The notes under the pieces: generated by a model
The model's input: the letters and a program-made list of their open reading frames with translations, nothing else
What the model was told of the DNA's origin: nothing
The model's database searches: none
Origin: Loxodes magnus
Lineage: Eukaryota > Ciliophora > Karyorelictea > Loxodida > Loxodidae
Length of the DNA: 64,000 nt
Assembly (NCBI GenBank): GCA_946699065.1
Contig: CAMPDV010002035.1
Span: 1 to 64,000 of the forward strand
Reading direction: 5' to 3'
Program-made: the position numbers and the translations under genes
In this document: in pieces, positions 1 to 61,805 of the stretch
Position numbering within the stretch: the first letter of the stretch is position 1
Layout: every line of letters starts with the position of its first letter

Positions 1-3000
1 GATTTCTAACATCCAAGCCAACAGAAGTTGTTGTTTGGGAATATACAGTCACCTTTATCAAAATCACATTCTTCAGTATTGCATTCTAAATTGCAAATTC
101 CATCTCCAATAGTTCCTTAGTTGCAGGTTTCTCCACATGGATGTGCGATTGGAGGTCTATCACAGTCCCCACCATCAAATTGGCATGTATCGATATTACA
201 TTGTTTATCGCATTTTCCATCTCCTACTGAAGACCAGGTGCATTCCTTTGAGCAAGTAGTACAGTCTTCTTAATCGTAGAAGCATTCTGCATTATTACAT
301 TGACTTTAGCATATTCCATCTCCTAGCTATGCATAGCAACATCCAGATGAACATTCAACCTAGCATTCTTCACTACAGTCTGGTAGATCATTTTAGCAAT
401 CAGAATTCTAGCATTCAGGTTCGCAAATTCCATCATTCAACCAATCCCAAAGACATCCTTCGGCGCAATAATATTGATTTGGATAAACACAGTCTCCTCC
501 ATCATACTAGCAATCCAAAGTATTGCACTACTAATCACAGTATGAGTCCCCAACTTATCTCCAATAGCATTCTTCATTGCATTTATTGAGATTAGGATAT
601 CTGCAATCAAATCCATCGAAATCACATAGAGCATTGTTACATCTAGATTCACATTCTCCATTGTTAATCATTCCCCAAGTACATCCTTCGAAGCAAAGAT
701 TTTCATTGGGATACATACAATCTTAGCAATCATAATTGCAAGCAGCATTGTTGCAGGCATCTTAACAGATTCTATCGCCAATAAAGTTCCTTTAGCAGTC
801 TGGAGCACAGTGAGTAGAATTTGGAGTTAAGCAATCACCTCTATCATACTCGCATTCTTTAATTAAACATTCAGGTTAGCATAAGCCATCTCCAATCATT
901 TCATTCTTGCATTGACTTAATTATTTGCACTACCCAGGACTAGGTTCAGGGTCAAAGGGGTCAGTTGGTATATCTGATGGCAGAGTTGTATCATTAATAA
1001 CATAAGGAGTATACAAAAAGGTTTTGTAGCAAATGTTAGAACCCTTTAGAATGAAGGTTTTATCTTGAGATCTAACATTATTTTAGAACTTAACTGCTAT
1101 GGCTTGATCTTTATTCAAAGTAACTTGATATGTAACTGTGTCCAAGTTATAGAAGATAAGTAAACTATTCCACTATGTCTTATCAAGATTTCCTACTACA
1201 TAATTCTCTTCAGAGTTACTTATAATCACTTGATAGTTTTATCCAGATTCTTCTTATTCAACGATAAGTTAAACTTTATCTGGCAATAAAACTACTTAAG
1301 AGTCACCAAGTATGTCAAATCCAAAAGTTATATAGAATGTATAATCACTTAAAAAATAAGGAAGTACTTCATAAGCTACTGATTAGGTTTCATTCAAGCA
1401 AAGTTAGTCATTACTTGGGGTGGGATCTCCTGTAGGTGTAACTGTTACGTTGGTACAATTTATAGATTCCATTTGAAGTTAAGCAGAACTACTATAAGTG
1501 GAATAGCATGAATTATTTGGCTATGGTTCTGGTGTCGGAATGTCAGGAAAATCTTCTGGAATATCATCTTCACTGTATATAATTGTATTTTAGTAGCAGA
1601 AAGGAAGATTACCATAGAACGTGTATTGATTAGGCCTTGGTTCCATATTAATAATCAATCCTTTTCCATTTTTATCCCATTCTGTTACGTTTTCATACTT
1701 CCTTTTATCATTCAATTATACAGTTAAATTATATGTCTTTGAATCGAAAATTACCCAAAGTTCATTCCATTAGTCATTTACCGATCCTATTTCGAGGGTA
1801 ACTCCTTCTAATTCATAAACAAACATTCCAAGTCTATTCTTTGAAGTTGGGTAGACATAAAAATTACCATAAGGAAGCGAAATTATTTTTTCACGTGTAT
1901 TTGTACTTTCATCTTCGTAAGAATAATAATTTGGCTACAACAATGAGTAAAGTGCATAGACATAGACCTCTCCTTAATCCTCCGTTCTAATTGTTCCAAT
2001 ACCAGTTTCATGATAACATCTAAGACCTGAGGTACATGTAGTATCTCCAGTAAATTCGCTTTCCATAGGACTATCTTTGCATTCTTCCTAACAGGACTTT
2101 AAGTAATTGAACGAAGAGTCTGCTTTATCTGGACAAACTTTGCCTTCACATTAATCAATAGAATATTTCAAGTCTTCTGTTAGAGTTTTCATGGTATCCA
2201 CGTAAGTTTAATTTGTCAATGAAGGAAGATTTGACAACTCTTTTTCATAGCAATCAATTAATTAGTTGCAAGTATTGATTAGAAGCTCATAAGAAGATAA
2301 GCATTCTTCGCTATTACAGTTGTCATCTAAAGATTCTATAGCAGAGAAAAGATCCTGTGTAGCTTCTTCAGAGGCTAGAGAACTTTTTATTGATCTTAGC
2401 TTGTCGTGGCTTGAGAGATCATTCTAAGCTTCCACTGTTTTTTTGTTTACAAAGTAACCTGCTAAATAATCTCCACTTATTATTTATTATTCAATTCCAG
2501 GTCCTTTCCATGCTACTTCTACATGATCAGATTCACCTGCATCTTTATGCAAAACTTCTATGTAATATGGCTATTCAGCAATCAAGTATATTTCCTTGGA
2601 TTTTTGAGAGAGAGCTGCATTGAAATTACCAACGCTTGTCTATTTTCTTAAGTATGCAATTTATTTTTTATCAGCAGGATTTCCTGAAGTACTGAGGTAT
2701 AATTCAGATTCATCATCAGAAGCTATCCAAAATGTATACTTTCCATTCACTTTAGGAATTAAATATCCTCGAATTCTCTGACCATATGAGCTGTACCAGT
2801 CTATTGGTCCTTATAAGCTTTGGAGTGTACTTGCTTCGTCAGGTATATCAGGATATTAAGCATTCTTAGTGAAGTCTGTGATATATTTTCCTGATATCTT
2901 CCAGAATTCTGCATCAACAAATCCTCTCTACAGTTCGAGCTCTTCATTAGCCTCTTTATTCTTGATGTGTTCCTATAAATGATTCGAATCAGTATCCCAT

Positions 3001-3248
3001 TTTAAGGCAGCCTCATAGGCTAAATTTAGCTCTGACCTAAAATCTTTGAGGATTTTATTATTAGGCTCAGCTACTTAGGTCACATAGATATCCTTTTGCT
3101 TAACAACATCCTCTATCTCCAGCATAAGACTGTAAATAGTATCTGCATCAGGACAATCTTTCCAGTTCTTTTCAGGTAAATAGCTTTAATACATCGCATT
3201 GACAGCGAAAAAAGAAGTAATAAGAAAAGCACTAAGGAAGGCTTTCAT
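1..3248 (-). CDS. 5' part of a second copy of the giant LNR/PA14 gene, cut by the window edge
   Basis: This segment matches 50,793-54,040 base for base apart from a handful of substitutions that I could see, all before position about 2,000 (for example near 10, 131, 333, 467, 521 and 1,983). It begins with the same ATG (3,246-3,248) and encodes the signal peptide, the PA14 domain, the first lectin-like modules and the first cluster of about nine LNR repeats, some 1,082 residues. The frame stays open with TAA/TAG as Gln. The remaining three quarters of the gene would lie to the left of the window. Whether that copy is complete cannot be judged here. Confidence 0.88.
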
Positions 3249-16610: not shown

Positions 16611-16619
16611 AGTAAGACA

Positions 16620-30140: not shown

Positions 30141-30463
30141 CAACATCACTAAGATGAAGCAATCTCTAATCTTTCTTACATACTATAATTAGAATCTAAT
30201 AAACTCATACTGTTTAAACCAGATAATCTAATAAGGTATGAAAAATAAGTACTAAAGCCTTAAAAATTATTTGACTTTTAATTGAATTAAATGGGTTGCA
30301 TGGTAGCGAAACACAAACCACAAATGAAGAAAGCAATATGAGTCACTCCAGAGACTAATCTACTGCCAGACAGGTAAAAGAACACTCATGTCTAGATACT
30401 ACTCAAGAAATTCAAATAGTACTCAAATAAGAGTCAGAAGCTAGATTTTAAAGCCTTTTTATA

Positions 30464-40106: not shown

Positions 40107-41239
40107 ATAATAATTATAAGAGTCATGCTATTAGCATTTTTAACACTAATCTTATTTTTCTTTCTATTACTCTTTTATAAGATTAAACTAGCAAATATTG
40201 CTTCATTATTGTAGAGTAACTAGTAGATTAATACTCTCATATAAATATGCTTTCTCTAAAAATACTGAGTCTTATTATATTCCTCTTAAGATTACTTCCG
40301 AAACTTAATTATAAGAAAAATATGCTAATTATCGTTTTTTAACAAGACTCTGATTATTACATCATACTAGTCTTTTTAAAGTGATTACAGTTAATTTTTT
40401 AGCTATAGACTTAATTAAATAATACCTTAAATATACTTATGTCTAAGAAATTCTCATATTTTTAGAATATTCTAATAGATAGAAGAGATATGCAATAGAA
40501 ATAAATTGATAAAGTAATTATTTACTCGTAGGAAGCAAGTAGTTTATATTTGTATTAGTACAAGAAAAGGAAATCAAGATGCTAAACTAGTTGAGTATTA
40601 ATAAAATTGCAATTATAATGTTAACTGCTATCTTGTGCCTATTTATTAGCTAATTTATAGAATTAAAACAATAAATAGAAAGATTTAATCTTAGTGTGTA
40701 TCTCAATCAATTTTAAGTATACTAGATTTAGTAATAATTAGTATAACTATAGAAAATATTTATTATTCTTTAATCCAAACATAAGGGAATACAATCCATA
40801 TATCAAATTTACTATACTATTATCACTATACAGCCATTATTCATATCAACCCAGTGCCAATACAATTTATCAAAAAACATACAACTAAATAATACAACGC
40901 TATTTAGTTCAAATTTACCATTCTCATCATAAACACATTATAGTATCAATCAATATAAATCAGTTATATGTAAACATTATACAATTCTAGATCATCCATT
41001 TTCCATACCAAACTATTGCTTCTACCTAAAATTATTACAATCTTAAAAAACCATATACCATTTTAATCATATTCTTACAACCATTTATTACAAAATATCA
41101 AAATTAACCATATTATAAAAAGTTAAAACAAGATACTATAATATAACTAAGATTTACAAATCTTTATTTAAAACCAATATATTTATTTTTAAATCAATTA
41201 AAATGTAGAAAGTTTTCGATTTTATTTTTTAAATCAGAC
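40107..41239. other. AT-rich interval downstream of the giant LNR gene
   Basis: This interval lies between the start of family member 3 and the 3' end of the LNR gene. It is very AT-rich, and 40,750-41,200 shifts to an A/C-rich, G-poor composition on the plus strand. I see no supported gene. Confidence 0.5.
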
Positions 41240-44200
41240 TCACTCATCACTACTTGAACTAGATTTCTGCGAACGAGATCTTTTTTCAATCCTCTTGCTT
41301 TTAGCTGAAGATTTTGTCTTTCCAGAGAAATCTACTTTTTAAGCTTGATTTTTTCTTTTTTCTTATACAAAATTAATAACTCCTACATCACCTGTTCCTT
41401 TTTCAGCTGATATATCTTCTTCTTTCTAATTTTCGTCTTCCTAATCTTCATTTTCGACTTCTTATGGCTCGACTTCAGGAGCATCTACTTCTGGTTCATC
41501 ATTTACTTAATCTACATATAAATCATCTGGTACGGTATTAACTTATACAATTCCATCTTCTTCATCTTCTTATGGCTCGACTTCAGGAGCATCTACTTCT
41601 GGTTCATCATTTACTTAATCTGCATATAAATCATCTGGTACGGTATTAACTTATACAATTCCATCTTCTTCATCTTCTTATGGCATGACTTCAGGAGCCT
41701 CTACTTCTGGTTCATCATTTACTTAATCTGCATATAAATCATCTGGCACGATATTAACTTATACAATTCCATCTTCTTCATCTTCTTATGGCTCGACTTC
41801 AGGAGCATCTACTTCTGGTTCATCATTTACTTAATCTGCATATAAATCATCTGGTACGGTATTAACTTATACAATTCCATCTTCTTCATCTTCTTATGGC
41901 ATGACTTCAGGAGCCTCTACTTCTGGTTCATCATTTACTTAATCTGCATATAAATCATCTGGCACGGTATTAACTTATACAATTCCATCTTCTTCATCTT
42001 CTTATGGCTCGACTTCAGGAGCATCTACTTCTGGTTCATCGTTTACTTAATCTGCATATAAATCATCTGGTACGGTATTAACTTATACAATTCCATCTTC
42101 TTCATCTTCTTATGGCATGACTTCAGGAGCCTCTACTTCTGGTTCATCATTTACTTAATCTGCATATAAATCATCTGGCACGGTATTAACTTATACAATT
42201 CCATCTTCTTCATCTTCTTATGGCTCGACTTCAGGAGCATCTACTTCTGGTTCATCGTTTACTTAATCTGCATATAAATCATCTGGCACGATATTAACTT
42301 ATACAATTCCATCTTCTTCATCTTCTTATGGCTCGACTTCAGGAGCATCTACTTCTGGTTCATCATTTACTTAATCTGCATATAAATCATCTGGTACGGT
42401 ATTAACTTATACAATTCCATCTTCTTCATCTTCTTATGGCATGACTTCAGGAGCCTCTACTTCTGGTTCATCATTTACTTAATCTGCATATAAATCATCT
42501 GGCACGGTATTAACTTATACAATTCCATCTTCTTCATCTTCTTATGGCTCGACTTCAGGAGCATCTACTTCTGGTTCATCGTTTACTTAATCTGCATATA
42601 AATCATCTGGTACGGTATTAACTTATACAATTCCATCTTCTTCATCTTCTTATGGCATGACTTCAGGAGCCTCTACTTCTGGTTCATCATTTACTTAATC
42701 TGCATATAAATCATCTGGCACGGTATTAACTTATACAATTCCATCTTCTTCATCTTCTTATGGCTCGACTTCAGGAGCATCTACTTCTGGTTCATCGTTT
42801 ACTTAATCTGCATATAAATCATCTGGCACGGTATTAACTTATACAATTCCATCTTCTTCATCTTCTTATGGCTCGACTTCAGGAGCCTCTACTTCTGGTT
42901 CATCGTTTACTTAATCTGCATATAAATCATCTGGTACGGTATTAACTTATACAATTCCATCTTCTTCATCTTCTTATGGCTCATTAAATAGTCTTTGGAA
43001 TTTCATTTATGCGAAACGGTTTACTTAACTTCCATGTAATTCTATTACATCACTAGGACTTATTCCCTCTAGATCAAAGACTTATTCTCTAATATATTCT
43101 TAATCTTTTAGTTTACTTCTAATTACAAAAGCTTCTCCATCTGTTCTTATTTCATGACTGTACCATTATCCTATTTTTAGAGGCTCTTCAGTTATCTTTA
43201 TTGTTTTTTCAGCGTTTTCCAAATAAAGATCACCAATTGGATTTTGTAATATGCTTATCGTTGGTAATTTAATTAATGTTTGCTTTCCAGAATCTTTTCT
43301 TAATATTTCTTCAAGCATATAATCAATTTCGAAAGAATACGATGGTGTGCTGAAATCGTTTCTCTAAAAAATGTAAATTATTTCTTCAAGTTCTAATCCT
43401 TCTCTAAATCTAGCTTGTCCTTCACCTTTTGTCTCAACTTTAGCATCTTCCCCTTATGATACAGATACATCATTTTCAAATGGCCACACTGTGATTTCAC
43501 CTTCAGTTTCTAACTATAAGATTTCTTCTTTCTTTTTCTGAATTCTGTTTTCTTCTTCTTCATTTTTCTATATTATCTGTTCATATTCATCTGCTTCCTT
43601 TTCACTTTGAGATTTTTAAGAATCATCTGCAACTTCAACTGTATCAATATCTTCATTTTGAGGTAATTAAACATCTTCTGTAGTTTCATCTATATCATTT
43701 TCCTGTACGATTTCAGGTTTATTTTCTTCCTTTTCTATATCTTAACAATCTCCACCATCCCAACTACAAGCTTCTATGAAACATTCAATATTGCATCGGC
43801 CATCTCCAATATATTGTTAGGGGCAAGTTATCGGGCATTCATCGAAGGTTTCCAAACAATCAGTGAAATCGTAATTACATTCTGGAATATTACATTATTC
43901 ATCGCAGATAAAATCTTGCTTACATTCGAAAGGACATCCAGAACAATCATTATTATCCCAATTGCAATTCTTATTATTACAGTTCTTGTGGCAAATACCA
44001 TCTCCTAACATATCCAAATAGCATCCCACAGCACAATCATCATAAGCTTTGCAATCTGAACCATCCTAATCGCATGAATCAAATTAGCATTATATATCAC
44101 ATACTCCGTTATTTACCAAAGTCTCCTTACAATCAGGAGCACAATATTCTAATTATAAGCAATCTCCTTTATCCCATCCACATGCTGCTGTGTTACACTC

Positions 44201-47200
44201 ATAGTTGCAATATCCATCACCTAACCATGAAACAAAACAGTTTTCTGCACAATTAGATTTTATGCAGTCTCCAGCATCATATTTGCATCTTGAATTGTAG
44301 CAATCTTTCTAACATTCTCCATCACCTATCATACTTGTAGTGCATTACCATGCACATTTTTGTGAGCAGTCTGCTCCATCAAAATCACAAGCTTAATTGA
44401 AACAACTATGATCGCAATGTCCATCAGATATCATTTCCTCCAAACAAAATTCCGAACATCTAGGTAAGCAATCGAATACATCCCATTTACAAGCTTCGTT
44501 ATTGCATTGTTCATCACAAACACCATTATTTAACATACTTTTCTAGCAAGAACTATTACATTCTTCTAATTTATTACAGTCTCCATTATCAAACAAACAT
44601 TCAGGATTGTAACAAGTTTAATCACATTCACCATCACCTATCCAAGCTAAAGGACATCCCCAGCCACTCAAATGATTGCAATCTTCTCCATCATAATTAC
44701 ATTCTTTTATGTAGCATTCTTATTAGCACATTCCATCGTTAATCATATCTGTACTGCAACCCAAATTACAATCTTATGGGCAATCTCCAGAATCATAATC
44801 GCATTCCCCAATGTTGCATTCTTCATCACACACACCATCTCCATTGAAACCTAAGGGACAACCCGCTCTAGTACAATTATCGCAATCAGATCCATCAAAG
44901 TTGCAAGCTTAATTGAGGCAAAAAACATCACATTATCCATTATTAATCATTGATATTTTGCAATCTGGGCTGCATTCTTCCTCTGGCTTACAGTCTTACA
45001 AATCATGATTGCAAGCGTCGACATTGCATTCATCTTCGCAAATATCATTTCCAATCATATAATTATGACAACCTGGAGCACATAAATCTTCAGGAGGTGC
45101 ACAATCATTTTCATCGTATTCGCATTCAACAACATTGCATGCTTCATCACATATTCCGTCTCCAAGCATGCTAATTGGACATCCTTCAGTACAGGTAGGT
45201 TACTCATAGCAATCATTTCCATCATAGAAACAAGATTGAGTAAGGCATTCTGTATTGCATATTCCATTGTCTATCATAGTAGCTTAACATCCAGGACTGC
45301 AAAGATCTACAGTGCAATCATTTCCATCCCAATTACACTCTACATTGTAGCATTCAGCTTCACAAACTCCATTGTCAATTTGAGACTAAGAACAATCTGG
45401 AGCACATTCACTTTCTATAAAGCAATCATTTCCATCATAGCTACAATTCTAGTTCCAACATTCTTTGTCACAAGTTCCATCGTTGATGTAGTTTAATGAA
45501 CATCCTGGTGAACATTCTTCGACACAGTCACCTCCATCAAATGAGCATTAAGTTGTATTGCAAGCTAAGTCACATTTTGAGTTTCCAATCATTCCAGGAG
45601 CGCATCCATCGGCACATAAATCACAGTCTCCACCATCCCATTAACAAGCTTCATTATAACATTCAATATCACAAACTAAATCGTTTATAAATTACTTTAA
45701 GCAATCAGCAGTACAATAATCTATACAATCGTCTTTATCATATTAGCATTGAGGTAAGAAACATTCTTCTTAGCATAATCCATCTCCAACCATATATTCT
45801 TCACATCCTTCAGCACATGGTTCTACTGGGAAAGTAATGCAATCATTTCCATCGTTGAAACATTCAGGAACTTCACATTCTGTATCGCAATGTTTATCTC
45901 CTATCCATGAAATTAAGCATCCTTTATCTCCGCATTATTCGCAATCATTATCATCGTGATGGCATCTTTCAGTTAAGCATTATTCTTAGCATACTCCATC
46001 TCCAATTTAAGACCATTTGCAACCTTCATCACATTCTTCTATATTTGCGCAATCATCTGAATCGAAATAACACTCTTCTATGTTGCAAATTTCGTCGCAA
46101 ACCTTATCTCCAACCCATTCCCATCTACATTCCTCGCTACAATATAAAGGACCTGGGTAATTGCATTCACCTTAATCGAAATCACATTCAGTAACATTAC
46201 AAGCAAGATCGCATTTTCCATTTCCTAAAAGTAAAGGAGGACATTCCTCAGCACAATAATTATTGCAATCATCACCATCCCAACTACATAATTCATTTTA
46301 GCAAGTCTCTTAGCAAGTTCCATCATTAATCATATCATATGTACAATCTTTGTTACAATAAGGCTCACTAGGATAAACACAATCTCCGTTATCCATATTA
46401 CAGTCAAGATTGTTACATTCAGGGTTGCATACTCCATTTCCAAGATTTTGAATAGAACATTCTTCTTTACCGCAGTAACCTTCAGGTTTTGGAGTTTTTA
46501 TGCAATCGAGATTATCATACCAGCAAGATTCTACATAGCAAGGATCATTACAGTTTCCATCTCCTACTTATGACCAAGCACATCCATCAGCGCAGAAGTC
46601 ACAATCAGCTTCATCCCAGTGACAGTCTTCATTATTACACTATTAATCACAAAATCCATTACCTACAAGATTTTTTGAGCATCCTGGTACGCATTCAGTT
46701 GAATTTTAATTATCATCAATATCATTACCACATAATTTGCTTGCTACACAAGCTGGTTAACTTATTCCATCTCCAATCATTGACCAAAGACAGTCTTTGT
46801 CACAATACCACGCATTTGGATAAATACAATCTCCTTGATCCCAACCGCATTCTTCTAAATTGCACTCATCATCGCAGAATCCATCTGCTAATAAATGTAC
46901 ACATCCAGGTACTATTCTGAAACATTTATTATCACAGTCTTATTTATCAAAATTGCATTATTCTACGTTACAATCTGGATTACATATTCCATTTCCTACT
47001 TATTCCCACCAACAATTTTCTGCACATTTTTATTCGTTGAAAGGATCACAATCACCAAAGTCATAAACACAGGCTAAAACATTACAAGAGGCGTCACACT
47101 GAGCATTTCCTAAATCATTCCATCTACAATTTTCTGCACAATGTGTTGTATTTGGAAGATATTCTTAAATGCAATCTCCTTTATCGTAATAGCACAAAGA

Positions 47201-50200
47201 AGTATTGCAGGCAGCATCGCACACACCATTTCCGATTTCTTCTCATTTACATTCTGTTGTACAATAAATAGTTGAGTCAATAGTGCCACCTTGCTTGCAA
47301 TCATCGTTATCATAGTTACATTCTGGAATATTACATTCTTTATCACATTTTAAGTCTCCTAACCAAGCAAATGGACATTCACATCTATTGCAATCTCCAA
47401 GATCAAAAGAGCACTCATAAGTATTACAATCTCTGTCACAAATTTCATCACCCAACATTTCTTAACTGCAAGTACAACCTTCAGTTTTGTTGCAATCTCC
47501 TTCATCATATCTACCAAATTCATTGTTACAGTCTTCTTAACATATTCCGTCTCCAATCCAAGTTTCATTGCAATCAGGACTGACAAAGCCTGGTGGTACA
47601 CAGTCTCCATTATCCCAATTACATTAAGCGAAATTACAATGCATATCGCAAACTTTATTTCCAAGATCAGTAGTTATACATGCCTCAGCGCATGTATTTA
47701 TTGCGCAATCTCCATTATCAAAATTGCATCTTTCTACATTGCAAGCTTATTAGCAAACTCCATCACCAAGATTTTCATTCAAGCAGTCATAAGTGCATCT
47801 ATCTTCGCAATCATCTTCGTCGTAATTACAATTTGCGTTCATACATTCTGCGTTACACATTCCATCATTTATCATACTTGCGTAGCATCCTAACTAACAT
47901 TGAGGTTCACAGTCACGTCCGTCATAGTTGCATTCAGCATAATCGCATTCTTCATCACAATTTCCATTTCCCATTTTTCCTTAGCATTCTAACGAACATT
48001 TTTTGTCACAATCTTTTCCATCGAAATTACACTGCTCTATATTGCATGCTCCATCACATTTTCCGTCTGCTATCCAAGCATTTAAGCAATCCCATGAACA
48101 TCTATCATCACAGTCTTCTCCATCAAAGTTACATTATTTATTGTAACAAACTAAATCGCATACTCCATCGTTAATGTATTTAGGGTTGCATTCAGAAGCA
48201 CACCAAGGTTCACAATCACCATTATCATAATTGCATTCAGCTGTATTACAAATCTAATTACAAACTCCATCTCCTTTGAATGAAGCTACGCAGCCTTGTC
48301 TTGTACATTCGTCACAATCAAGACCATCAAATTAGCATGATTCAGTTAAGCATTCTTCGTCACAGTATCCATTGTTAATATAATCTGTTCTACAGTTTTC
48401 ATTGCAATAATCTGGTTCATCACAATCTCCAGAATCATAATCACATTATTCATTATTGCAAGCAGGATCGCATATACCATCACCAACATTTCTATATGGA
48501 CAGTCTTTGGCACATTCATTTTCTGGCTTGCAATCATTCTAATCAAAGTCGCAACTTTCTACCTAGCATGCAGCTTAGCAAATTCCATCATTAAGATCGC
48601 TGTATAAACATCCCTCAGCACAACTTGTTGGAGGAGTACAATCAGAACCATCAAACTTACAATCTTCGTTATAACATTCAGTTTCGCAAATTCCATTACT
48701 TACTTAAGATTCTAAGCATCCCTCAGAACAGAAAGGAGCTGTGCAATCTTTCCCGTCCCAATTGCAATCTTTGTTCCAACACTAAATTTAGCAAGTTCCA
48801 TCATTAACCATTTTATCAGCACAACCATAAGAGCATTCTTCATCTAACCAACAATCAGTTCCATCAAATTAGCAAGATTCTGTCTAACACTCAGGATTGC
48901 ATATTCCATTGTTAATTTGTGAAAGTTTGCAACCTTAATCATTGCAAGTATCTTCACAATCTCCACCATCAAATTAGCAAGCTTCAGTATTACAGCTTTA
49001 ATCACACATTAAGTTTGCTAGTGAACAAGGAGAACATTCTGTAGCACAAGCATCACAATCACCTTTATCGAAATCGCATTGCTAATTGTAGCACTCAATG
49101 TTGCAACGACCATTTCCTAATTGAGATTTCAAACATTTTTCTTGACAATAGTCCAAGCAATCGTTGTGATCATATTAGCATTGCTTGCTAAAGCAACCTT
49201 AATCACAAATTCCGTTTCCAAGCATGTCTTAGCTACATCCTTCAGCACAATAATTTTCTGTTTCTCTTAAACAGTCAGAACCATCCATTTTACACTCTTT
49301 AACAAAGCATTCATCTTCGCAAATATCATCGTTTATCATAGAAAGTGTACAGTTCTTATTGCAAAATTCACAATCTTAATTATCGAATTAGCATTCAGCA
49401 ACATTGCAAGCATCTTCACATATTCTGTTACCTAATTGATTTTTGTTGCATCCAGGAGCACATTCTTCTGCTGGAATACAATCAAAGCGATCATAGAAAC
49501 AATCAGCAACTTAGCAAGGAGGATTGCAAGCGCCATCATTAATCCAACTATGAGGACATCCTTCAGCACAGAACTTTTCATTTGGATATGATGAATATTC
49601 TTCTACTTAACTTTAGTATTTTTGATTTTCTTAAAATACTTTAGTAATTTCATTTTCTTTATTTGTTTCTGCTTTAGACTTTGTCGGTTGAATACTATAA
49701 ACTTGAATATCATCGAAGTATACATTACCATACTTTTCTCCAACAAAATCTCTAATAATTAAAGCTATCTTTTGGCTATCTTGCTTGAAAATATCAGTGA
49801 AAGCTATTACGACTGTTTCCCATTGGTTAGTATCAGGGAGTCTTGCAGCTACTTAATCAAATTGCTCAAATGTTGAAGTGGATCCAATGTAGAATGGATT
49901 AGTTATAATTCCACTTTCATCTTATTAGCAAAAACCAATTTATCCACCTGATTTGACTGATCCATCAGATACACCCAAATACTTAAATGCAACAATATAT
50001 TAATCTGTAGGACTGAAGAAAGGTAAACTATATAACTCATCTTAAGTAGTTATTTAGAGAACTTTATTAGCTTCATCTTTTGGATCAGATACTATACTAG
50101 ACAAAAATCCTTCTTCAGTTTGCTCATTCCAATTATTTGCTAGATTTCCTTCCTCGAAATTATCGTCAAATATCAATTTAGCTGAAGCTAATTATGCAAC

Positions 50201-53200
50201 TTGATCATAAATATTTTCAACAGTATCTAAAGCAATTATAACAATGTCATCGAAATAACAGTCACCAGCTGGTGAAACTCTGTCTTAGAAAACAATACGT
50301 AGAGATCCTGGTTCGTTAAAGTCATTGAAAGTTAAACAATATTTTTACCAAGATTCACTGTATGGAAGATGCATTGCTTTTACATTATCTTCATAAAAGT
50401 CTTTATCAGTACTTGCAAGTCATACTATTTCTTCTTCGTTACCAACTCCAACAGATCCTCCAATATTTTCTACATCACTATTTTCTTTAGACATAGCGAG
50501 ATAATTGAAGCAAACCACATAGCTTCCTGTTGGTGATTCAAGTAAAGGAGTGAAAATATCTCCATCTATATTCTCTGAAGTGAAAGTTAAAACGGTATTA
50601 TCAGAATTTAAAGGATCATGAGTCAAAGTACCAGAAGTTAAAGATTCTTCTTTTCCTACCCATTTATTGAGGTTTCCACTTTCAAAATCTTCTTAGAAAA
50701 TAGCTGTTTCTTTGCTTGGAGTACAATCTTATCCATCGAAATCACATTATTCTACTTGGCAAGGAGGTTCACATATATCATTGTTTACCTGTGATTTCTA
50801 GCATCCAAGCCAACAGAAGTTGTTGTTTGGGAATATACAGTCACCTTTATCAAAATCACATTCTTCAGTATTGCATTCTAAATTGCAAATTCCATCTCCA
50901 ATAGTTCCTTAGTTGCAGGTATCTCCACATGGATGTGCGATTGGAGGTCTATCACAGTCCCCACCATCAAATTGGCATGTATCGATATTACATTGTTTAT
51001 CGCATTTTCCATCTCCTACTGAAGACCAGGTGCATTCCTTTGAGCAAGTAGTACAGTCTTCTTAATCGTAGAAGCATTCTGCATTATTACATTGACTTTA
51101 GCATATTCCATCTCCTAGCTATGTATAGCAACATCCAGATGAACATTCAACCTAGCATTCTTCACTACAGTCTGGTAGATCATTTTAGCAATCAGAATTC
51201 TAGCATTCAGGTTCGCAAATTCCATCATTCAACCAATCCCAAAGACATCCTTCGGAGCAATAATATTGATTTGGATAAACACAGTCTCCTCCATCATACT
51301 AGCAATCCAAAGTGTTGCACTACTAATCACAGTATGAGTCCCCAACTTATCTCCAATAGCATTCTTCATTGCATTTATTGAGATTAGGATATCTGCAATC
51401 AAATCCATCGAAATCACATAGAGCATTGTTACATCTAGATTCACATTCTCCATTGTTAATCATTCCCCAAGTACATCCTTCGAAGCAAAGATTTTCATTG
51501 GGATACATACAATCTTAGCAATCATAATTGCAAGCAGCATTGTTGCAGGCATCTTAACAGATTCTATCGCCAATAAAGTTCCTTTAGCAGTCTGGAGCAC
51601 AGTGAGTAGAATTTGGAGTTAAGCAATCACCTCTATCATACTCGCATTCTTTAATTAAACATTCAGGTTAGCATAAGCCATCTCCAATCATTTCATTCTT
51701 GCATTGACTTAATTATTTGCACTACCCAGGACTAGGTTCAGGGTCAAAGGGGTCAGTTGGTATATCTGATGGCAGAGTTGTATCATTAATAACATAAGGA
51801 GTATACAAAAAGGTTTTGTAGCAAATGTTAGAACCCTTTAGAATGAAGGTTTTATCTTGAGATCTAACATTATTTTAGAACTTAACTGCTATGGCTTGAT
51901 CTTTATTCAAAGTAACTTGATATGTAACTGTGTCCAAGTTATAGAAGATAAGTAAACTATTCCACTATGTCTTATCAAGATTTCCTACTACATAATTCTC
52001 TTCAGAGTTACTTATAATCACTTGATAGTTTTATCCAGATTCTTCTTATTCAACGATAAGTTAAACTTTATCTGGCAATAAAACTACTTAAGAGTCACCA
52101 AGTATGTCAAATCCAAAAGTTATATAGAATGTATAATCACTTAAAAAATAAGGAAGTACTTCATAAGCTACTGATTAGGTTTCATTCAAGCAAAGTTAGT
52201 CATTACTTGGGGTGGGATCTCCTGTAGGTGTAACTGTTACGTTGGTACAATTTATAGATTCCATTTGAAGTTAAGCAGAACTACTATAAGTGGAATAGCA
52301 TGAATTATTTGGCTATGGTTCTGGTGTCGGAATGTCAGGAAAATCTTCTGGAATATCATCTTCACTGTATATAATTGTATTTTAGTAGCAGAAAGGAAGA
52401 TTACCATAGAACGTGTATTGATTAGGCCTTGGTTCCATATTAATAATCAATCCTTTTCCATTTTTATCCCATTCTGTTACGTTTTCATACTTCCTTTTAT
52501 CATTCAATTATACAGTTAAATTATATGTCTTTGAATCGAAAATTACCCAAAGTTCATTCCATTAGTCATTTACCGATCCTATTTCGAGGGTAACTCCTTC
52601 TAATTCATAAACAAACATTCCAAGTCTATTCTTTGAAGTTGGGTAGACATAAAAATTACCATAAGGAAGCGAAATTATTTTTTCACGTGTATTTGTACTT
52701 TCATCTTCGTAAGAATAATAATTTGGCTACAACAATGAGTAAAGTGCATAGACATAGACCTCTCCTTAATCCTTCGCTCTAATTGTTCCAATACCAGTTT
52801 CATGATAACATCTAAGACCTGAGGTACATGTAGTATCTCCAGTAAATTCGCTTTCCATAGGACTATCTTTGCATTCTTCCTAACAGGACTTTAAGTAATT
52901 GAACGAAGAGTCTGCTTTATCTGGACAAACTTTGCCTTCACATTAATCAATAGAATATTTCAAGTCTTCTGTTAGAGTTTTCATGGTATCCACGTAAGTT
53001 TAATTTGTCAATGAAGGAAGATTTGACAACTCTTTTTCATAGCAATCAATTAATTAGTTGCAAGTATTGATTAGAAGCTCATAAGAAGATAAGCATTCTT
53101 CGCTATTACAGTTGTCATCTAAAGATTCTATAGCAGAGAAAAGATCCTGTGTAGCTTCTTCAGAGGCTAGAGAACTTTTTATTGATCTTAGCTTGTCGTG

Positions 53201-54040
53201 GCTTGAGAGATCATTCTAAGCTTCCACTGTTTTTTTGTTTACAAAGTAACCTGCTAAATAATCTCCACTTATTATTTATTATTCAATTCCAGGTCCTTTC
53301 CATGCTACTTCTACATGATCAGATTCACCTGCATCTTTATGCAAAACTTCTATGTAATATGGCTATTCAGCAATCAAGTATATTTCCTTGGATTTTTGAG
53401 AGAGAGCTGCATTGAAATTACCAACGCTTGTCTATTTTCTTAAGTATGCAATTTATTTTTTATCAGCAGGATTTCCTGAAGTACTGAGGTATAATTCAGA
53501 TTCATCATCAGAAGCTATCCAAAATGTATACTTTCCATTCACTTTAGGAATTAAATATCCTCGAATTCTCTGACCATATGAGCTGTACCAGTCTATTGGT
53601 CCTTATAAGCTTTGGAGTGTACTTGCTTCGTCAGGTATATCAGGATATTAAGCATTCTTAGTGAAGTCTGTGATATATTTTCCTGATATCTTCCAGAATT
53701 CTGCATCAACAAATCCTCTCTACAGTTCGAGCTCTTCATTAGCCTCTTTATTCTTGATGTGTTCCTATAAATGATTCGAATCAGTATCCCATTTTAAGGC
53801 AGCCTCATAGGCTAAATTTAGCTCTGACCTAAAATCTTTGAGGATTTTATTATTAGGCTCAGCTACTTAGGTCACATAGATATCCTTTTGCTTAACAACA
53901 TCCTCTATCTCCAGCATAAGACTGTAAATAGTATCTGCATCAGGACAATCTTTCCAGTTCTTTTCAGGTAAATAGCTTTAATACATCGCATTGACAGCGA
54001 AAAAAGAAGTAATAAGAAAAGCACTAAGGAAGGCTTTCAT
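41240..54040 (-). CDS. Giant secreted multidomain protein with PA14 domain, about sixty Lin-12/Notch repeats and acidic tandem repeats (4,266 aa)
   Basis: From ATG at 54,038-54,040 to TGA at 41,240-41,242 the span is 12,801 nt, exactly 4,267 codons, with no intron needed when TAA/TAG are read as Gln. A second TGA follows two codons after the stop. Residues 1-20 are a signal peptide ([14 protein letters not shown]...). A PA14 domain lies at about 110-260 (core [11 protein letters not shown] near residue 167). Beta-sandwich, lectin-like modules follow at about 450-750. About nine LNR repeats sit at 770-1,090, then two more modules that each end in Y-F-D-D-I (1,105-1,480), then about fifty LNR repeats (1,484-3,430) of the form C..C..I.DG.C...CN...C.YD..DC. 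Next come an acidic region with another lectin-like segment, fourteen 36-aa repeats and a basic, Ser-rich tail. There is no transmembrane helix. PA14 and lectin-like folds often bind glycans and LNRs bind calcium. An extracellular, cortical or extrusome matrix role is inference. Confidence 0.9.
41463..42974 (-). repeat. Fourteen in-frame 108-bp (36-aa) tandem repeats
   Basis: The motif tatggc recurs every 108 bp from 41,463 to 42,975, which gives exactly fourteen units inside the giant LNR gene. Each unit encodes 36 residues rich in D, E, V and P ([18 protein letters not shown]...). Two versions differ at a few bases: type A reads D-A-P-E-V-E-P and type B reads E-A-P-E-V-M-P. In plus-strand order they run A A B A B A B A A B A B A A', where the last unit is a hybrid. 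Units are otherwise almost identical, so the array looks recently homogenised. The encoded stretch is strongly acidic and probably extended. Confidence 0.97.
43750..49590 (-). other. Main LNR (Lin-12/Notch repeat) domain array of the giant gene
   Basis: Roughly fifty consecutive cysteine-rich modules of about 36-37 residues. The repeating pattern is C-x2-3-C-x4-[IL]-x-[ND]-G-x-C-[DN]-x2-C-N-x3-C-x-[FY]-D-x2-D-C. The C-terminal D-x-x-D-C of each module is the calcium-coordinating part known from Notch LNRs. Modules differ from one another in the non-cysteine positions, unlike the near-identical 108-bp repeats downstream, so this array is old. A smaller cluster of about nine modules lies at 50,760-51,720 and again at 1-930. 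Confidence 0.9.
49600..50720 (-). other. Two beta-sandwich, carbohydrate-binding-like modules between the LNR clusters of the giant gene
   Basis: Two tandem, divergent modules of about 170-190 residues each start with an F-x(1-3)-D-F/N-F-E-x-G-N-L-x(2)-W type segment and end with C/V-Y-F-D-D-I. That start-and-finish pattern is typical of jelly-roll carbohydrate-binding or MAM/CBM4-like domains: the F-E first strand, and D-D-I next to the last strand. I assign the fold by this pattern only, with no family name. They sit exactly between the short and the long LNR arrays. Confidence 0.5.
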
Positions 54041-57000
54041 TATTATTATTTTGATTATTTTACGCTCCTTAAATAGTAACCGACATTGATTTTATACGGC
54101 TATAAACGAAAAAAACAAGTATTTTAATATTAGTTAATATCCGTTTATTTAGCCTTTTTATAAAGTGTTTTTATTAGTTAAAATAACTACTAAGTATATC
54201 GTTATAATAACATACTAAGGCAAATGAAAGTGAAACTAGGCATTTTTAGATTTTAGGTGCATGCTGGTTCTTAGTTAAAGAACTGTCTTTTAAGCTAACT
54301 TCTTTTTTACTTGCTGATTTCGAAAAATATTAAGAATTTTCTTCTATGAAAATGCTTAGGAAACTTTTGAAATTGATGATCGAAAGATAGATAGAAGAGA
54401 AAAAATAGAAGATAAGGATAAAATAAGCGGATTTAGTTAAATAAGAAATATAACTGAATTAAATAATATTTTGGAAAGTTCTCTCAGTAGTAATTTACTA
54501 AATTTAGCTTTTAGCACCATAAAGCGCTGTCAACACAGTTAGAATATTCATTCCCAAGGTTAATGAAATAATAATATTTAGTTTCTTAGAGTTTCTAGTA
54601 CTTCCTTTCAAGGTTCCTCACTTAATACTTCAAAGATTTGCACATTCTAAAAGCAGTAAAAATAATAAATTTTAGGCTTTGATACCCTTCATTTGATATA
54701 ATGAGTATCTTATTATATGCTCATTAGTTGAAATGAAGAGCTTTATAACTAAGCACTATTTTTCTAATATTATTAAACCAAAAATAAAGGTTTTTCTTAT
54801 TTCTCTGTCTATTTTTAAAAGACTTATTAAAACCTTTAAAATGATATGATTGCTTAGTTTTAAGATAATAGAGGGTAAATAATTTAGAATATATATTAGT
54901 TAAAATTGTTTGATTGTTTAATTACATTTAGTATATTTAGAGCCATCATTTTCAGAACATCTTTGTAGATTGAAAGGTGTAGATTGCTCAACTGCTCAAA
55001 TTTCTACTATGTATAGAATTTACTCTAAGCAAGCCAATCCTAGATAAGTATATTCAAATTTAGCCTCAAAAGGAGGTTCCAAGGAAAAAGTTTATTTTAC
55101 TTAATATAATCAGATAACCAAGGACTAGGTTATCTTACAATTTTAGACTATAAGCATTAAGAATTACATCTAAATAAGTTGTTCACATATACTTATCTCT
55201 TTCTGTTGTTCTATTTGGTTCTTTTAAGCTCTTCTTTTATATATTTATAGCTGATGTAAACTCAAACGCACACTTATACTTTTATTTTTATAATTGTTAT
55301 TTCTCTTTAATATTTTATCTATAAACTATGAGTGAAGAATTCTATATCTTTTGATCTAATTAATTCAACTTAAGAGGTTTCTATGAATGTAATTCCCTTA
55401 CTTGTCATATTAGCTTCAATTTATTCATCCTTATATTTAGGTAATTTCTCTATTTCTCATCTAAATTTCCTAATATTTCTATATTTCTCCTACTTTTCTT
55501 GTCTTTTTATAACTCGTATAGTATAAGGCATTTGGTATAAAAGTATAAAATGTAGACTTTAAGCTACATCAAAAGAGAAATTTAAGAAGTAGTAATATCT
55601 TAACTAAGGGAATATTTTAATTGCATGTTAATAGTGAAATGAAATAGCATTGCTGAGTATAAAGTTTATCCACTTAAAGAATGCTTATAAGCTAATTAAA
55701 AATGCTAACTTAAATGATTTTTATATGAATGTTTACCATTATACTACAAGTTTATGGAAACATCTAGTTAATAGTCATAGTTATCTAAGTTAAGGCCATT
55801 ATTAGAAGATATATGGAACAAAACTTAAACAAATGTAATTCAATTAAAATTGAGATTATAGTTGGTTATGAAAAGGCAGTGGATTAGAAGAAATGTAAAT
55901 TTTAGTTACAATTATTAAGGAATAAAAATATAAAAATTGTATTAATTAAATCTAAAAGTTAAATTAGCAAATATACTTTAAATCTAACTAAATCATATTA
56001 GTATAATATTCTATAAATCAGTATTTTATATAAGAGTATTAATACCAAACAATCCTATTACCATCTAAATTAGAAAGTAAGGCAGATTATTAATAATTTA
56101 AGCATCAAACTTTAAATTTTAAATTCAACCATTTCTAGACACTAAGTTTATAATTAATCTACTTAGACAATTATTAAGCAAATTGGTAATCTCTAAAGTT
56201 TAAATTCTCTATATTTTAAGATCAGAATAGACTTAACTTTTCAATTAAGAACTCAATAGTTTATCAAAGCATTTGAATTATCTCACAATAAAATATCTAT
56301 CTTATATATTTAATTTTCATACTCTTTTGTAATTTGTTTCTTATTTCAAATATTCTTATTATCTCATATTATATAGCAACATTTAAATGATGATAGATCC
56401 TATTCTTAGTGATATTTTTAAGCAGCAATATTAAAAATTAGATCTTTCTATCATCTTAACTCCAAACAACTTCTTACTGCAACTTTATAATATAAAGCTA
56501 AAGTCTCATTATACAATCATATAATATATGCTCTTTATCTTATTTAGATATATCAATAGAATAATCAATAATCATACTCTTTATTTAAACTAAGTATATT
56601 CTTTTTATTCATTACCTTATTAATCCAAAGCAAATATTAAACTTAACCACTCTATTTTTCATATTATTCTCTATAATTTTCACTAAATACCATTTCCACA
56701 TTTTAATTAAGCTAAGCCAAACAGTGAATAATATGAAATAGATCAGAAAAATACTTTTCTGTCTAGTGATTGCATTTTAGATATTCTGGTATTAGTTAGG
56801 AAGAGCAATGACTATAGAAATAGTTATTTTATAATTTTCTATATTATCTTCAATAGGTTTAAATAAAATATGTCTAACTACAGAAAACAAACAAGCTAAT
56901 TCAAAATTACAAACAACAAAAAACAACTTTAAAACCTTAACCTTAATTTAGAAACACAACAAAACTAGGAATAACAAACATAAATCACAGAGTTAACTTC

Positions 57001-57291
57001 TGAGAATTCAAATCATCCTTTTAATTAACAAACCAAACCAATTCCCAATCAAACAAGCCAGCTCCAAAACTAATTCCACCTTCAAATTATAAGATTAATA
57101 AGCAATTTTACCCTTTTCTATAATCAATTGAAACAGCTTTATCGCTTTCATCTTCACAAAATCTTTAAAATACCTATTTAAGTATAAAATCATATCAATA
57201 AGACTTGATTAATTAATCAATTGATATATCCAACTCTGAGAGATAAAAATCTCTTAAAATTTGAAAGACAGTCAAGATAAGAGTACCTTAA

Positions 57292-58182
57292 AGTATTAAT
57301 TAAGTTTAATAGATTACAAGTCTTGATAAGACCTTAAGTACTTCTAGAAAGAAAAAAACACTCCAATGTGAAATTTGCTATAATACATTTAATTTAAGTT
57401 AAATGCTTTTCTTAACATGTGGGCACAGATTAAATTAATCATGCTTGAAGCTAATGATCAATGAAGCTATTTCGAAATGCCATTTTAAAGTTGAGCACTT
57501 TCTATGCTGAAATTAAGAATGTAATTTACCCTTAGAAATGCCTATTCCTAGTTTCAATTAACTGAACCATTAATTTTTAAAAGCTTATAGAGGAATAATG
57601 AGATTTGATATGCTGGTGGAGACTAAAAGCTACTGGAAAATTCAAGTAAGTTTTAAAGAATTAGAAAATGTCCTGGTTGTAAAGAAATTCTTGACTTAAG
57701 AAATATTTATTAATTTTTCAAGTGTCCACATTGCTTAAATCATTTTTGCTCTATATGTTGCAGAAAAAGCCATTAAGGGCCATGCCAATACGAAAATTAA
57801 GAAGAAGTAAGATTATCAATTTAGTATTTAAGATTAATTAATGAAGCGGAAATAGATTTAAGAGCTTGTCCTTTTTGTAATGAGTAATACGGGCCACCAG
57901 TCAAATGTAAACATGTAACATGTGATAGATGTAGAGGAGAATGATGTTTTGCCTGTTGTGTTAACTAGAAAGTAAGTATACTATCTTTAGCCTATTTTCG
58001 CTCATGGAAACAATTATCATGCTGAAGGATGTCCATTCTACTTTGCTTATTAAGGCGAAGAAATTTATAAGTCATAAAGTTGTCCTGAATGTAAAAGATT
58101 AGGATTTGGTTGCTAAGCGCCACCTAGAATAAGCAAAGAATTAGAAGAAAAAAATAAGAAATGTGGGATTGGAGCTAGGTGA
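57292..58182 (+). CDS. RBR-type E3 ubiquitin ligase, right copy
   Basis: I see no difference from 6,500-7,390 at an offset of 50,792, including the C-E-I-C of RING1, the TGA-encoded Trp of RING2, the 19-nt intron at 57,972-57,990 and the terminal TGA at 58,180-58,182. Every statement about the left copy applies. Both copies appear equally intact, so a recent duplication or gene conversion has kept them identical. Confidence 0.8.
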
Positions 58183-58231
58183 AGACTCAAAATTAGGGAA
58201 TAATAAATTTGTTTGTTTGTTTTTATTGTTT

Positions 58232-59642
58232 TATAACTAAAAGTTCTAAGCATAGTAGTTCTAAAGTGATAAAACTACATCTATTAAGTTCTAATTTTAG
58301 TTTAATTTAATCTCAATTAGAATGAAAATAAATAGGTAATTTCATTCTAAGAACAAGTTTGGAAGAAAATAGTGATGCTATATAATCTAATTCCCCTTAT
58401 AATGGTATATTGGTTACATTTACTTATAGCTTTAAGAAGCGTGATAGAACTTTCCCTATCTCTATCTTCCATGTTATGAAGGTTGTTCTTAATTAATTAT
58501 AATTAGTTGCTATAAACAATAATTTTGAGAAATAGGAAAAAGGATCTGGCAATCTTTAGCATTGTAATAATATAAAAGGTAATGATTATAGTTGAGGAGC
58601 CTTGATAAAGAATAGACTTTGCTTTATAATAATTGATAATTAAAATATATTTGCTAGGGTTAGCTTAGCATCCTATGGTTCTTAAGGGAATGATGCAAAA
58701 GGTGATATGAGTCTCTCCAATGTCTTGCTAAAAAGAATTGAAATTGAATATTGATTTGCTTAGTTTGATTAGCTTAAAGCTGACTGAATGAGTTAATGTA
58801 TTGAATGCATAAATAAATGGGAGATAGTATAAAGAAGAGTGTAAAGTGTATTTGGATATATTTAGAATATTAAAGACTTTTATGGTTGTATCATCATTGC
58901 TAAGAATTGAATAATTAGTATGTAAGAAATGAAGGTAATTAAAATAATGGAAGCTATATTCTAAAATATTAAGCTATTAAGGGACATGGAATACTTTTAC
59001 TTAAGCAAACATTTTAGATAGTGCAAACAGATTAATAATTGATTTAGGTATAAATCTTAAGAGTCTTTAATTATTAAATAACTATATATATAAGTTTATG
59101 AAATTATAGATAGATATTTATACAATAGTAAGCAGCATGTTGCATGCTTTAACTTTATGTTCTACTCTAAATTAAATTTTGCAAAATCAGAAGAATAATA
59201 GCTATCTAGCAAGATTATATAATAATCAAACATTTTAAGTTAAAATCTTTAAGATATTAGAGTAATAATATCTTAAAGTCAACAATTATACTTATAAGCA
59301 AGAATCTATAGAAACTAAAATGTTTTAAATGAAATCATTCAAACATTAAATAAGATTATTCTATTCAAATTTACAACTTTACTAACACATTTTATCTTAG
59401 ATTGCTTAATGAAATCTTAGTGCAATGGAATATATTAAAGTGGATATAAATGTTTTACTAATTTTAATTAAATCTAAAACAGCTAAATCCTAAAAAATTG
59501 CTATGTAGTTCTATTCTATATTTGCATCTGTTATAATAGCTTTGATACCTTTAATATTTTTATAAGATCTATCATAGATTATTTTAATGAAGCATAAGCT
59601 TTTAAATTATATTCAGAAGGTTTTTTAAGGAATACTTTATGA
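58232..59642 (+). CDS. Unrecognised protein of about 470 aa, right copy
   Basis: Same sequence as 7,440-8,850 at offset 50,792, ending at TGA 59,640-59,642. I noticed no substitution between the copies in this gene. Confidence 0.55.
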
Positions 59643-61174
59643 GTAAAAGTTTATTGAAATAAGCATTTAAAATAAATATTTAAAATGAGAAAGCTTTTAT
59701 TCATATAAGTACTTTTAATAATTAAGCATACACTTAATTTTAAGTTTTTAAATCCCTTGAAATAATTTATAATTATTCTTTTTCTTTATTACTTATATAG
59801 CATCTTAATAACTCTACTTTAATTATTTAAATTAGCTATTTCTATTCATTTGCGTAGTTATCTTTTATACTATTAGACTTTATACACTTGTATTATGAAC
59901 TTTATATATCATCTTAAATGAACTCATGATTCAATTACCTATGTAAGTATAATTGCTCTAAGCTCTATAGTTAAATATACTTAATTTTGCTTATTTTATT
60001 GTCTATATCTTTAAATTCTTTATTCTTCATATTAAATCTATTAAATTCCTACTAGCTGCTAATATTAATAAAGTGCTTCTATGCAAAATAAATAAAAGAA
60101 TAAACCATTTAAAATTAAAAGATTTGAAGTATTTATGCTAATTAAATTTATGAAAACAGAATTACCAATATTAATGTGATATCATTCTATTAATTAATAA
60201 TCACTACCATTTGTAATACTCTAATCATGCAGTCCTTGTCTTCATATCCTTTTATTTTTCAATTTATTATTTCATAGATTTTCGCTTTTAGAGTAACAAC
60301 TTTCCATTATTTTTAGATTTAAGCTAACAAAATGATAGATATAGACTAGATTATCTTATACAACTTTCTTAAAGAGAGAATTCTTCTTTGTATGTTCCAC
60401 TAATTTTATTCGTATTGGATTTGAAAAATAAAGCTAAGGTAATTGTGATATGACTGAAATTAATTAAATTCCTAAACTAAGTCTCTTCAGACACTTTTAT
60501 TATTAGAATGTTTTTCATTTTTACTATTACAAACTTGATGATCATTGTTGTGAAATCTTCTACTATCATAGTTGATTACTTGAATTTTCCATAATGCTCT
60601 GCCAATATTAATGATGCAAATCTATTTAAGTTTTATTCATAGAGTTTAAATGAATTTAGTCTTCAATTATTAATTTATTTTCCAGTATTCTGAGTTCCTC
60701 ACATAATGTAAGCTTTAAAATTTGTATGAATTTAGCTAAATTAAATATCAATTTTGCTGGTAGATTATGCAAGATATTTAAATTTGTAAGTTGCAATTAC
60801 TAAGCTATCTACAATGGGCAGATCTATTATACAATTTATGTTTATTGAGTATCTTGTTGTAGATGAATTTGCTGATTCTTTTGTCCTCTATCTTAATCTA
60901 TTATGGTTCTGATTTGTAAATTGAAATATTGGTTTGAAGTAGCTTGATTGTATTAATTGAGGAAGTATCTTTGATTATAAATATAATAAGTTTAAATAAG
61001 CAGTTCTTAAATATGAATGGATATAACTAGATGCTTATTATATTAAAAGCTTATTTAATCTTTACTATTTTAATAATTAGTTTCTTTGCTTATTTCTTTC
61101 TATTTATTACTAGTGCTAAGCATATTTATTTACTTCAATAGTTCAATCTACTTCTCTTTATTATTCAATTCAAC

Positions 61175-61356
61175 CTTTCTCTTTATATCTAATCTACCTT
61201 TTAACTTAAATAACATAGCTATCTAGATTATTTATCTTAGTTCAAATTATTAACCTGTTAATATGCTTAATACCTAAATTTATTTGGAAGCAGAAAATTA
61301 TAGAAAGAAAAAGTTTTTAAGAATAAAGAATAAAGAGAATGTGAGAAGCTTATCAA
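61175..61356. repeat. 182-bp insertion (or left-copy deletion) at the identity breakpoint of the duplication
   Basis: The two copies run identically up to ttattcaattcaac (about 10,378 and 61,170). The left copy then continues at once with tgctatattgctgtc, whereas the right copy has about 182 extra bases before ctgtatattgctgtc. The insert is AT-rich. I see no terminal inverted repeat or target duplication beyond a few bases. The divergence between copies rises immediately after this point. Confidence 0.85.
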
Positions 61357-61805
61357 CTGTATATTGCTGTCCCGGATTTAAGAGTTTAGAAAATCTATTA
61401 ACAGAAGATTTAGTTTCATATGTCTAATCATAACAGATATAAACCAATCAAATCCAGAACCTACTATCGCCAGAGTTTAAGACTTTAAGATCAAAATATA
61501 ACAGAAAACTTTCAATAAAATAATCTAGTCAAGTATCTAATGAGTAAATTTGATCTAATTAGTGTCTACAGTTGTTATCAAATGAACACCAAAGGTTTCT
61601 CATACGTAATTAATAAAATAATCAAAATCCCATCATTCATTTTATTTGATAAACTTATGTCTCTTTCAGATAGATGTATAAATAATAAATAGCTAAATAG
61701 CTTTAAATTTGATTTAAACTAAAGCTAATTAATAATTAAACTATGAGACTATTTAATTTCTAGTTGTTTGATTCTATTAAATTCATATTCATATATTCAT
61801 TATAT

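Follow-up and report, generated by a model that had tools for sequence, protein, structure and literature searches.

A predicted giant secreted protein of Loxodes magnus combining a PA14 domain, 64 LNRs of near-constant number and order, and an acidic repeat tail

LNR modules are described chiefly from Notch, which carries three of them according to an excerpt of PMC2770060, and an excerpt of PMC8301441 reports a lineage-specific expansion of LNR-domain proteins, extracellular members among them, in Oithona nana. Here we analyze a gene on the 81,088-nucleotide contig CAMPDV010002035.1 (C2035) of the karyorelictean ciliate Loxodes magnus, within a stretch of 64,000 nucleotides hereafter called the window. 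Its predicted product shares the LNR fold, the six cysteines and the conserved Asp/Asn residues with the negative regulatory region (NRR; LNR-A/B/C) of Notch, but it holds 64 LNRs instead of the 3 in the receptor, and no receptor parts were found. The Oithona proteins share lineage-specific expansion with those of Loxodes, which differ in the presence of 64 LNRs in one protein. PAPP-A (pappalysin) is likewise secreted and LNR-bearing, but the window protein has no HExxH motif and far more LNRs. With PA14/GLEYA adhesin lectins of the flocculin type it shares a PA14 domain above the Pfam cut-off and a D-D pair, and it differs by a GLEYA score under the cut-off and by its LNR arrays. The initial annotation called LNR arrays of this size unusual, and the triplet of Notch supports that judgment. 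No such protein appeared among the matches listed for open-licence PMC papers on LNRs, PA14, giant proteins and ciliates; the modules are known, and within the literature searched the novelty lies in the scale, the frozen 9 + 55 array and the combination with PA14.

The gene was read on the minus strand under code 27, in which TAA and TAG encode Gln, and domains were called with Pfam curated cut-offs. In L. magnus, as stated in an excerpt of PMC11441545, TGA is the sole stop and doubles as a Trp codon, 3' untranslated regions are short and introns average ~19 bp. The coding sequence (Table 1) is a single open frame of 4,267 codons counting the stop, and the coordinates, strand, code and length first annotated proved correct. 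It includes 161 TAA and 35 TAG codons read as Gln, and two internal TGA codons in addition to the terminal one. Codons 1207 and 2266 were taken as Trp because both are TGG in two paralogues and because codon 1207 is TGA in each of the 28 near-identical copies, the window's included, that extend this far. At the gene end (41234-41242, minus strand), two in-frame TGA codons are separated by one codon; the first is TAA (Gln) in the paralogue C143a, and the stop position of the gene may have shifted.

Pfam Notch/LNR (PF00066) matched the protein with 994.5 bits against a cut-off of 21.2, in 63 stretches at E<=1, and a family hidden Markov model (HMM) resolved 64 LNRs, 9 in array 1 and 55 in array 2. 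The family HMM was seeded with 57 motifs from the same protein, and the Pfam result serves as its independent check. These counts agree with the roughly sixty LNRs, nine and then about fifty, of the initial annotation; the HMM check that it had named (PF00066 and PF07691 under code 27) returned both domains above cut-off, PA14 with 40.4 bits. The strict six-cysteine spacing is fitted by 62 of the 64 LNRs, and in these 62 the three expected calcium positions are Asp or Asn in 62/62, Asp in 62/62, and Asp in 61 with Glu in 1. We assume from Notch that these positions have calcium-binding roles in the window LNRs as well, and their conservation supports the many potential calcium sites first proposed. 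Several hundred cysteines had also been expected: the protein contains 403, and 381 of them fall inside the 64 LNRs.

In a Foldseek search with a six-LNR AlphaFold model, Notch NRR structures ranked first (best E 3.4e-5, TM-score 0.21), and PAPP-A chains were matched weakly (E 0.1 to 9). The homology of the LNRs to the Notch NRR and these weak matches could be taken to mean a Notch-like receptor or a protease regulator, a reading to which we assign almost negligible probability: at E<=1 Pfam returned LNR, PA14 and a sub-threshold GLEYA only, with no EGF, ankyrin or peptidase family, and the protein has neither a membrane-like segment nor an HExxH motif (0 occurrences). A Notch receptor was rejected on the absence of EGF and ankyrin matches and of a membrane-like segment, and a PAPP-A-type protease on the absence of HExxH and of any peptidase family. 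No furin-type site was found in the window protein.

Four paralogues, C143a, C143b, C155 and C1023, were read in whole or in part. Their identity to the window protein over residues 1-3432 is 89.7%, 77.5%, 68.5% and 57.1%, respectively. A single frame of C143a aligns over window residues 1-4098 and a single frame of C155 over 15-3434; C143b and C1023 were aligned over residues 1-3279 and 8-3247 in the first stretch fetched. The module order PA14, lec1, lec2, array 1, MAM-like pair, array 2 is common to all four. C143b, C155 and C1023 each contain 64 LNRs, as does the window protein, and C143a contains 63, the last LNR alone being absent; for the window LNRs, the top match occupies the identical index in 63/64 cases for C143a, 64/64 for C143b, 64/64 for C155 and 63/64 for C1023. 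Among the paralogues read, LNR number and order are thus frozen at 57-90% identity. LNRs were self-aligned as nine non-overlapping blocks. Array 2 shows an internal period of 32 LNRs, which 2 of 2,000 permutations matched. Given this period, block duplication probably enlarged array 2 before the divergence of the paralogues, after which the array froze.

The ratio of nonsynonymous to synonymous substitution (dN/dS) was computed by the Nei-Gojobori method for C155 and C143a. Against C155, with synonymous sites near saturation, the overall value is 0.162; the two LNR arrays give 0.134 and 0.069, the N-terminal and PA14 part 0.23, and the acidic part, where aligned, 0.66. Against C143a it is 0.379 overall and 0.147 and 0.168 in the LNR arrays. 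In both paralogues tested, purifying selection is strongest in the LNR arrays.

The PA14 domain (PF07691) of the initial annotation exceeds its cut-off of 24 bits, and PDB 6qdi was matched with E 1.3e-7 over the whole sequence (best single stretch 0.038). Its D-D pair, which we take to be the motif of calcium-dependent PA14 lectins, is present in 4 of the 5 family members and missing from C1023. GLEYA, with a cut-off of 26.2 bits, scored 14 in the window protein, 24.8 in C155 and 26.7, barely over, in a second PA14 of C143b; C143b and C155 each carry such a second PA14 downstream of the LNRs. The lectin-like or beta-sandwich folds of the initial annotation stand in part. The two MAM-like modules constitute a genuine repeat, being homologous to each other (hhalign 98.7%), but neither this pair nor lec1, lec2 or the C-terminal module of the window protein reached a Pfam cut-off. 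Pfam MAM (PF00629) gave 12.4 bits over the pair against a cut-off of 26.4 (E 0.14), with 1 of 10 module sequences matched at E<=5, and PDB 1gui was matched with E 0.15. A weak likeness to L-type lectins was seen in lec1 of C143b (18.8 bits, cut-off 78.3).

A PA14 head of this kind would also suit a surface adhesin or recognition protein, in which a PA14/lectin-like tip would sit on an LNR stalk held non-covalently at the surface and shuffling of C-terminal modules would give variants. C-terminal modules do vary among near-identical copies, C2906 having three, the window gene one and C3114 and C1624 lacking them altogether; the second PA14 of C143b and C155 adds to this variation, and a dN/dS near 1 against C143a at residues 300-770 leaves room for diversification of the head. 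Set against these points, the C-terminus is not membrane-like and the N-terminal and PA14 part is constrained relative to C155; we consider an adhesin rather unlikely.

The signal region is the most hydrophobic 19-residue stretch of the protein (hydropathy 1.52, against a maximum of 1.18 in the remainder), and the most hydrophobic stretch lies at the N-terminus in all five family members compared. A 19-residue hydropathy scan found no membrane-like segment beyond the signal peptide, and the predicted secretion of the initial annotation is supported accordingly. The whole protein has a net charge of -698. Its acidic tandem repeats, also initially annotated, amount to 14 complete units of 36 aa, and residues 3685-4200 are 38% Asp + Glu. 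Acidic tails are present in all five family members: by eye, C143b and C1023 carry different acidic repeats, their tails having been read in part and short of their ends, and C143a carries longer units that share a core with those of the window protein. The tail seems to retain acidity rather than sequence, because tails differ between lineages and between near-identical copies yet stay acidic.

These properties bear on two further locations for such a protein. As cargo of extrusomes, along the lines of the initial annotation, or of other dense-core granules, it would be condensed by calcium and its acidic tail and would swell on release, which overlaps with a matrix function as one location of it. 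The protein is soluble, extremely acidic and free of membrane-like segments, its acidity is retained despite sequence change, and its many gene copies suggest a bulk product; conversely, Pfam scans of the window protein gave no granule-cargo family, and known ciliate granule proteins are much smaller. We regard granule cargo as possible, although on balance doubtful. Very improbable, in our assessment, is a role in the barium sulfate statolith of the Mueller vesicle, the organelle with which Loxodes senses gravity. The protein would there serve as matrix, its tail and LNR sites capturing divalent cations and either templating the mineral or tethering it. Mineral-matrix proteins are often acidic, and the window protein is highly acidic and bears a signal peptide. 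Loxodes statoliths consist of BaSO4, according to excerpts of PMC5460273 and PMC10954788. The case is nevertheless purely circumstantial, and acidic secreted proteins are common.

The genome contigs (an assembly of 705,730,643 bases in 7,843 contigs) gave 63 matches to a query of the N-terminal 759 aa. The full 759 aa are spanned by 31 of them at >=92% identity, the window's two copies counted; stops were scored as mismatches, and the window's own row therefore stands at 96%. The further matches are relatives on C143, C155, C1023, C1746 and C1040 at 39-83% identity, plus fragments. Among the best 30 of the 63, all 30 near-identical copies are gap-free against the window gene over 1,240 codons (1,082 in two), with identity of at least 98.4%; the mean proportions of synonymous (pS) and nonsynonymous (pN) differences are 0.019 and 0.0067, and pN/pS is 0.35. 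A genome search for PA14 gave 67 matches, 64 on contigs bearing the gene family, the exceptions being C41, C18 and C118. Searches for relatives with the 759-aa query among viral contigs (6 pattern-matching stretches, 0 confirmed) and with residues 1-1106 among phages found none, eukaryotes outside this genome not being covered by either.

That the reading frame arose by chance, or represents several genes or a pseudogene array, is exceedingly unlikely. Some copies are fragmentary, and long frames come more easily under code 27, in which TGA alone is a stop. However, the family HMM gave 0 LNR matches in the other five frames of the gene stretch and 0 in 100 residue shuffles, the near-identical copies are gap-free over the part compared with a pN/pS of 0.35, and purifying selection acts upstream of the acidic repeats in the comparison with C155; the chance frame was rejected on these controls. 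Over the whole window, the family HMM returned 8 extra LNR matches, all in one other minus frame that corresponds to the truncated left-edge copy. The sequence thus supports one gene product, a predicted single giant secreted LNR/PA14 protein.

We propose, with about an even chance of being right, that this product is a secreted, soluble, giant, calcium-binding, disulfide-locked polyanionic protein of an extracellular or secretory-vesicle matrix, or of an adhesive. Its head, comprising PA14 and the lectin-like modules, would bind glycans, as its residues suggest. The LNRs would be locked by up to 190 disulfides, if the 381 cysteines pair, and by bound calcium, and the locked arrays would form a long spacer of set length. 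The polyanionic tail may bind divalent cations, drive condensation and hydration of the matrix and control its packing, and the high copy number may serve bulk production. Solubility, polyanionic charge and potential calcium sites are all compatible with a protein of a matrix or of secretory granules, and the conservation pattern fits the matrix model in that the LNR count of the body is fixed and the tail is conserved in acidity alone. In the distant copies read, LNR number and order are nearly fixed while the acidic tail changes, a pattern suggestive of a building block of exact size for a matrix in vesicles or outside the cell.

Several observations weigh against this proposal. AlphaFold modeled the six-LNR block with a mean predicted local distance difference test score of 75.2 in the best of five models and 45.5-58.8 in the others, and a predicted template modeling score (pTM) of 0.28; single repeats are fair and the array shape is unreliable. 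A rigid LNR rod was considered and, given this pTM, is not claimed. The dN/dS values near 1 against C143a at residues 300-770 (0.956 and 1.097) speak against uniform constraint on the lectin-like part, and in C155 the tail is both less acidic (23% Asp + Glu, net charge -50) and less regular. In-frame TGA codons after the start number 16 in C1023, 2 in the window gene and 0 in C143a, C143b and C155; with the loss of its PA14 D-D pair, C1023 may be TGA-rich, decaying or different in function. Broken or fragmentary copies occur at C1648:1036-3317, near residue 530 on C1328 and C2184, at C1648:102754 and at C1305:52146-53289. Finally, some copies may be assembly duplicates, because contig pairs match at identical coordinates (C2035/C703, C1328/C2184 and C1415/C2136), and copy number may be inflated by this redundancy.

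Table 1. Features of the LNR/PA14 gene and its partial second copy in the window.
Feature	Residues	Position	Strand	Basis or remark
Whole coding sequence		41240..54040	-	4,266 aa, code 27; stop TGA 41240-41242; frame kept in paralogues
Signal peptide	1-18	53987..54040	-	Judged by eye
PA14 domain	116-300 (Pfam match 157-257)	53141..53695	-	Pfam 40.4 bits; PDB 6qdi
Two lectin-like modules, lec1 and lec2	412-772	51725..52807	-	No accepted family; by eye
LNR array 1, 9 repeats	774-1106	50723..51721	-	Pfam, family HMM; human Notch1 NRR E 1.6e-12
Tandem pair of MAM-like or carbohydrate-binding-module (CBM)-like modules	1110-1465	49646..50713	-	hhalign; Pfam MAM below cut-off
In-frame TGA, read as Trp	Codon 1207	50420..50422	-	TGG in C143a, C155
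LNR array 2, 55 repeats	1491-3432	43745..49570	-	Family HMM; internal similarity period of 32 LNRs
In-frame TGA, read as Trp	Codon 2266	47243..47245	-	TGG in C143a, C155
C-terminal lectin-like module	3511-3684	42989..43510	-	Lectin-like by eye; absent in C3114, C1624; three in C2906
Acidic tail	3685-4200	41441..42988	-	Fourteen 36-aa repeats; without Lys, Arg
Ser-, Lys-, Arg-rich C-terminal end	4201-4266	41243..41440	-	Comparable end in C143a, C2906, C3114, C1624
Second gene copy, truncated at the left edge; 5' part present		1..3248	-	Window repeat; 759-aa search

The gene sits in a unit of ~51 kb that recurs in the assembly, and some contigs bear the gene in both orientations. Window positions 1-10382 repeat 50793-61174 directly at 99.93% identity, and the left edge was on this ground assigned a truncated second gene copy, absent from the initial annotation. 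The repeat extends over 1-13020 versus 50793-64000 at a spacing of 50.8-51 kb, being 97.9% identical past the first 10.4 kb. An intergenic piece of 2 kb is likewise repeated, at a spacing of ~51 kb on C2035 and of ~50 kb on C1305, with further copies elsewhere. Other window genes were sought by Pfam in six frames over 12000-16900, 18500-23400 and 28000-33000. At 31131-31579 on the plus strand, DUSP (31.2 bits, cut-off 29.3) and a sub-threshold Ubiquitin_3 lie in two frames, perhaps owing to a short intron or decay; this pair presumably resembles part of a USP4/11/15-type deubiquitinase gene. When the entire window was scanned for codon use, with the LNR gene as training set, one weak extra segment emerged at 30302-31705 on the plus strand.

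Modules of the window protein recur in other Loxodes proteins. The tandem MAM-like pair was also found in L050-L053 (on C290, C76, C984 and C577, respectively), with no LNR match in any of the four stretches; L050 and L051 bear cysteine-rich CXXC repeats of a type unlike LNR, and L050 ends, by eye, in a hydrophobic segment. The proteins on C290 and C76 thus share the pair with the window protein but differ in their cysteine-rich repeats. Of the 10,515 candidate places that a genome search for LNRs flagged, 150 went on to scoring, with a match in 147, and L. magnus may hold a broadly expanded set of LNRs. Two membrane proteins also carry LNR arrays: L055 (C76:812000-817000, minus strand), with 34 LNRs in the stretch read, and L054 (C198:281500-289500, plus strand), with 13. 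The cytosolic part of the C76 protein scored 27.7 bits against PHM7_cyt as an isolated piece (cut-off 27) and 20.2 when the whole stretch was scored. Among solved structures, CSC1-like ERD4 was the best match to a profile of both proteins (E 0.05). RSN1_7TM was found neither at the C76 protein nor, for that place, among the 11 matches of a genome search, and the place is absent from 35 PHM7_cyt matches of the genome search. The C76 LNR protein looks like a candidate OSCA/CSC1/TMEM63-type channel. If confirmed, it would place an array of LNRs on the extracellular side of an OSCA-like channel, in a ciliate whose gravity sense uses a mineral statolith (PMC5460273, PMC10954788).

A long shot that joins these observations is an LNR-based, calcium-locked matrix in which fixed-length secreted 64-LNR polyanions would constitute a matrix or cover one, possibly in the BaSO4 statolith or its vesicle, with LNR-bearing OSCA/CSC1-like channels tethered to it. 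If true, one LNR module family would serve both mineral or matrix and mechanical sensing. For the family itself, LNRs, otherwise encountered mainly in groups of three that protect Notch from cleavage, are here deployed as a bulk array by a unicellular organism. An array whose 64 repeats hardly vary in number or order even as synonymous sites near saturation, beside a freely changing tail, makes a clear case of length under selection, and the proteins described here are named candidates for components of the matrices, extrusomes and gravity vesicles of Loxodes.

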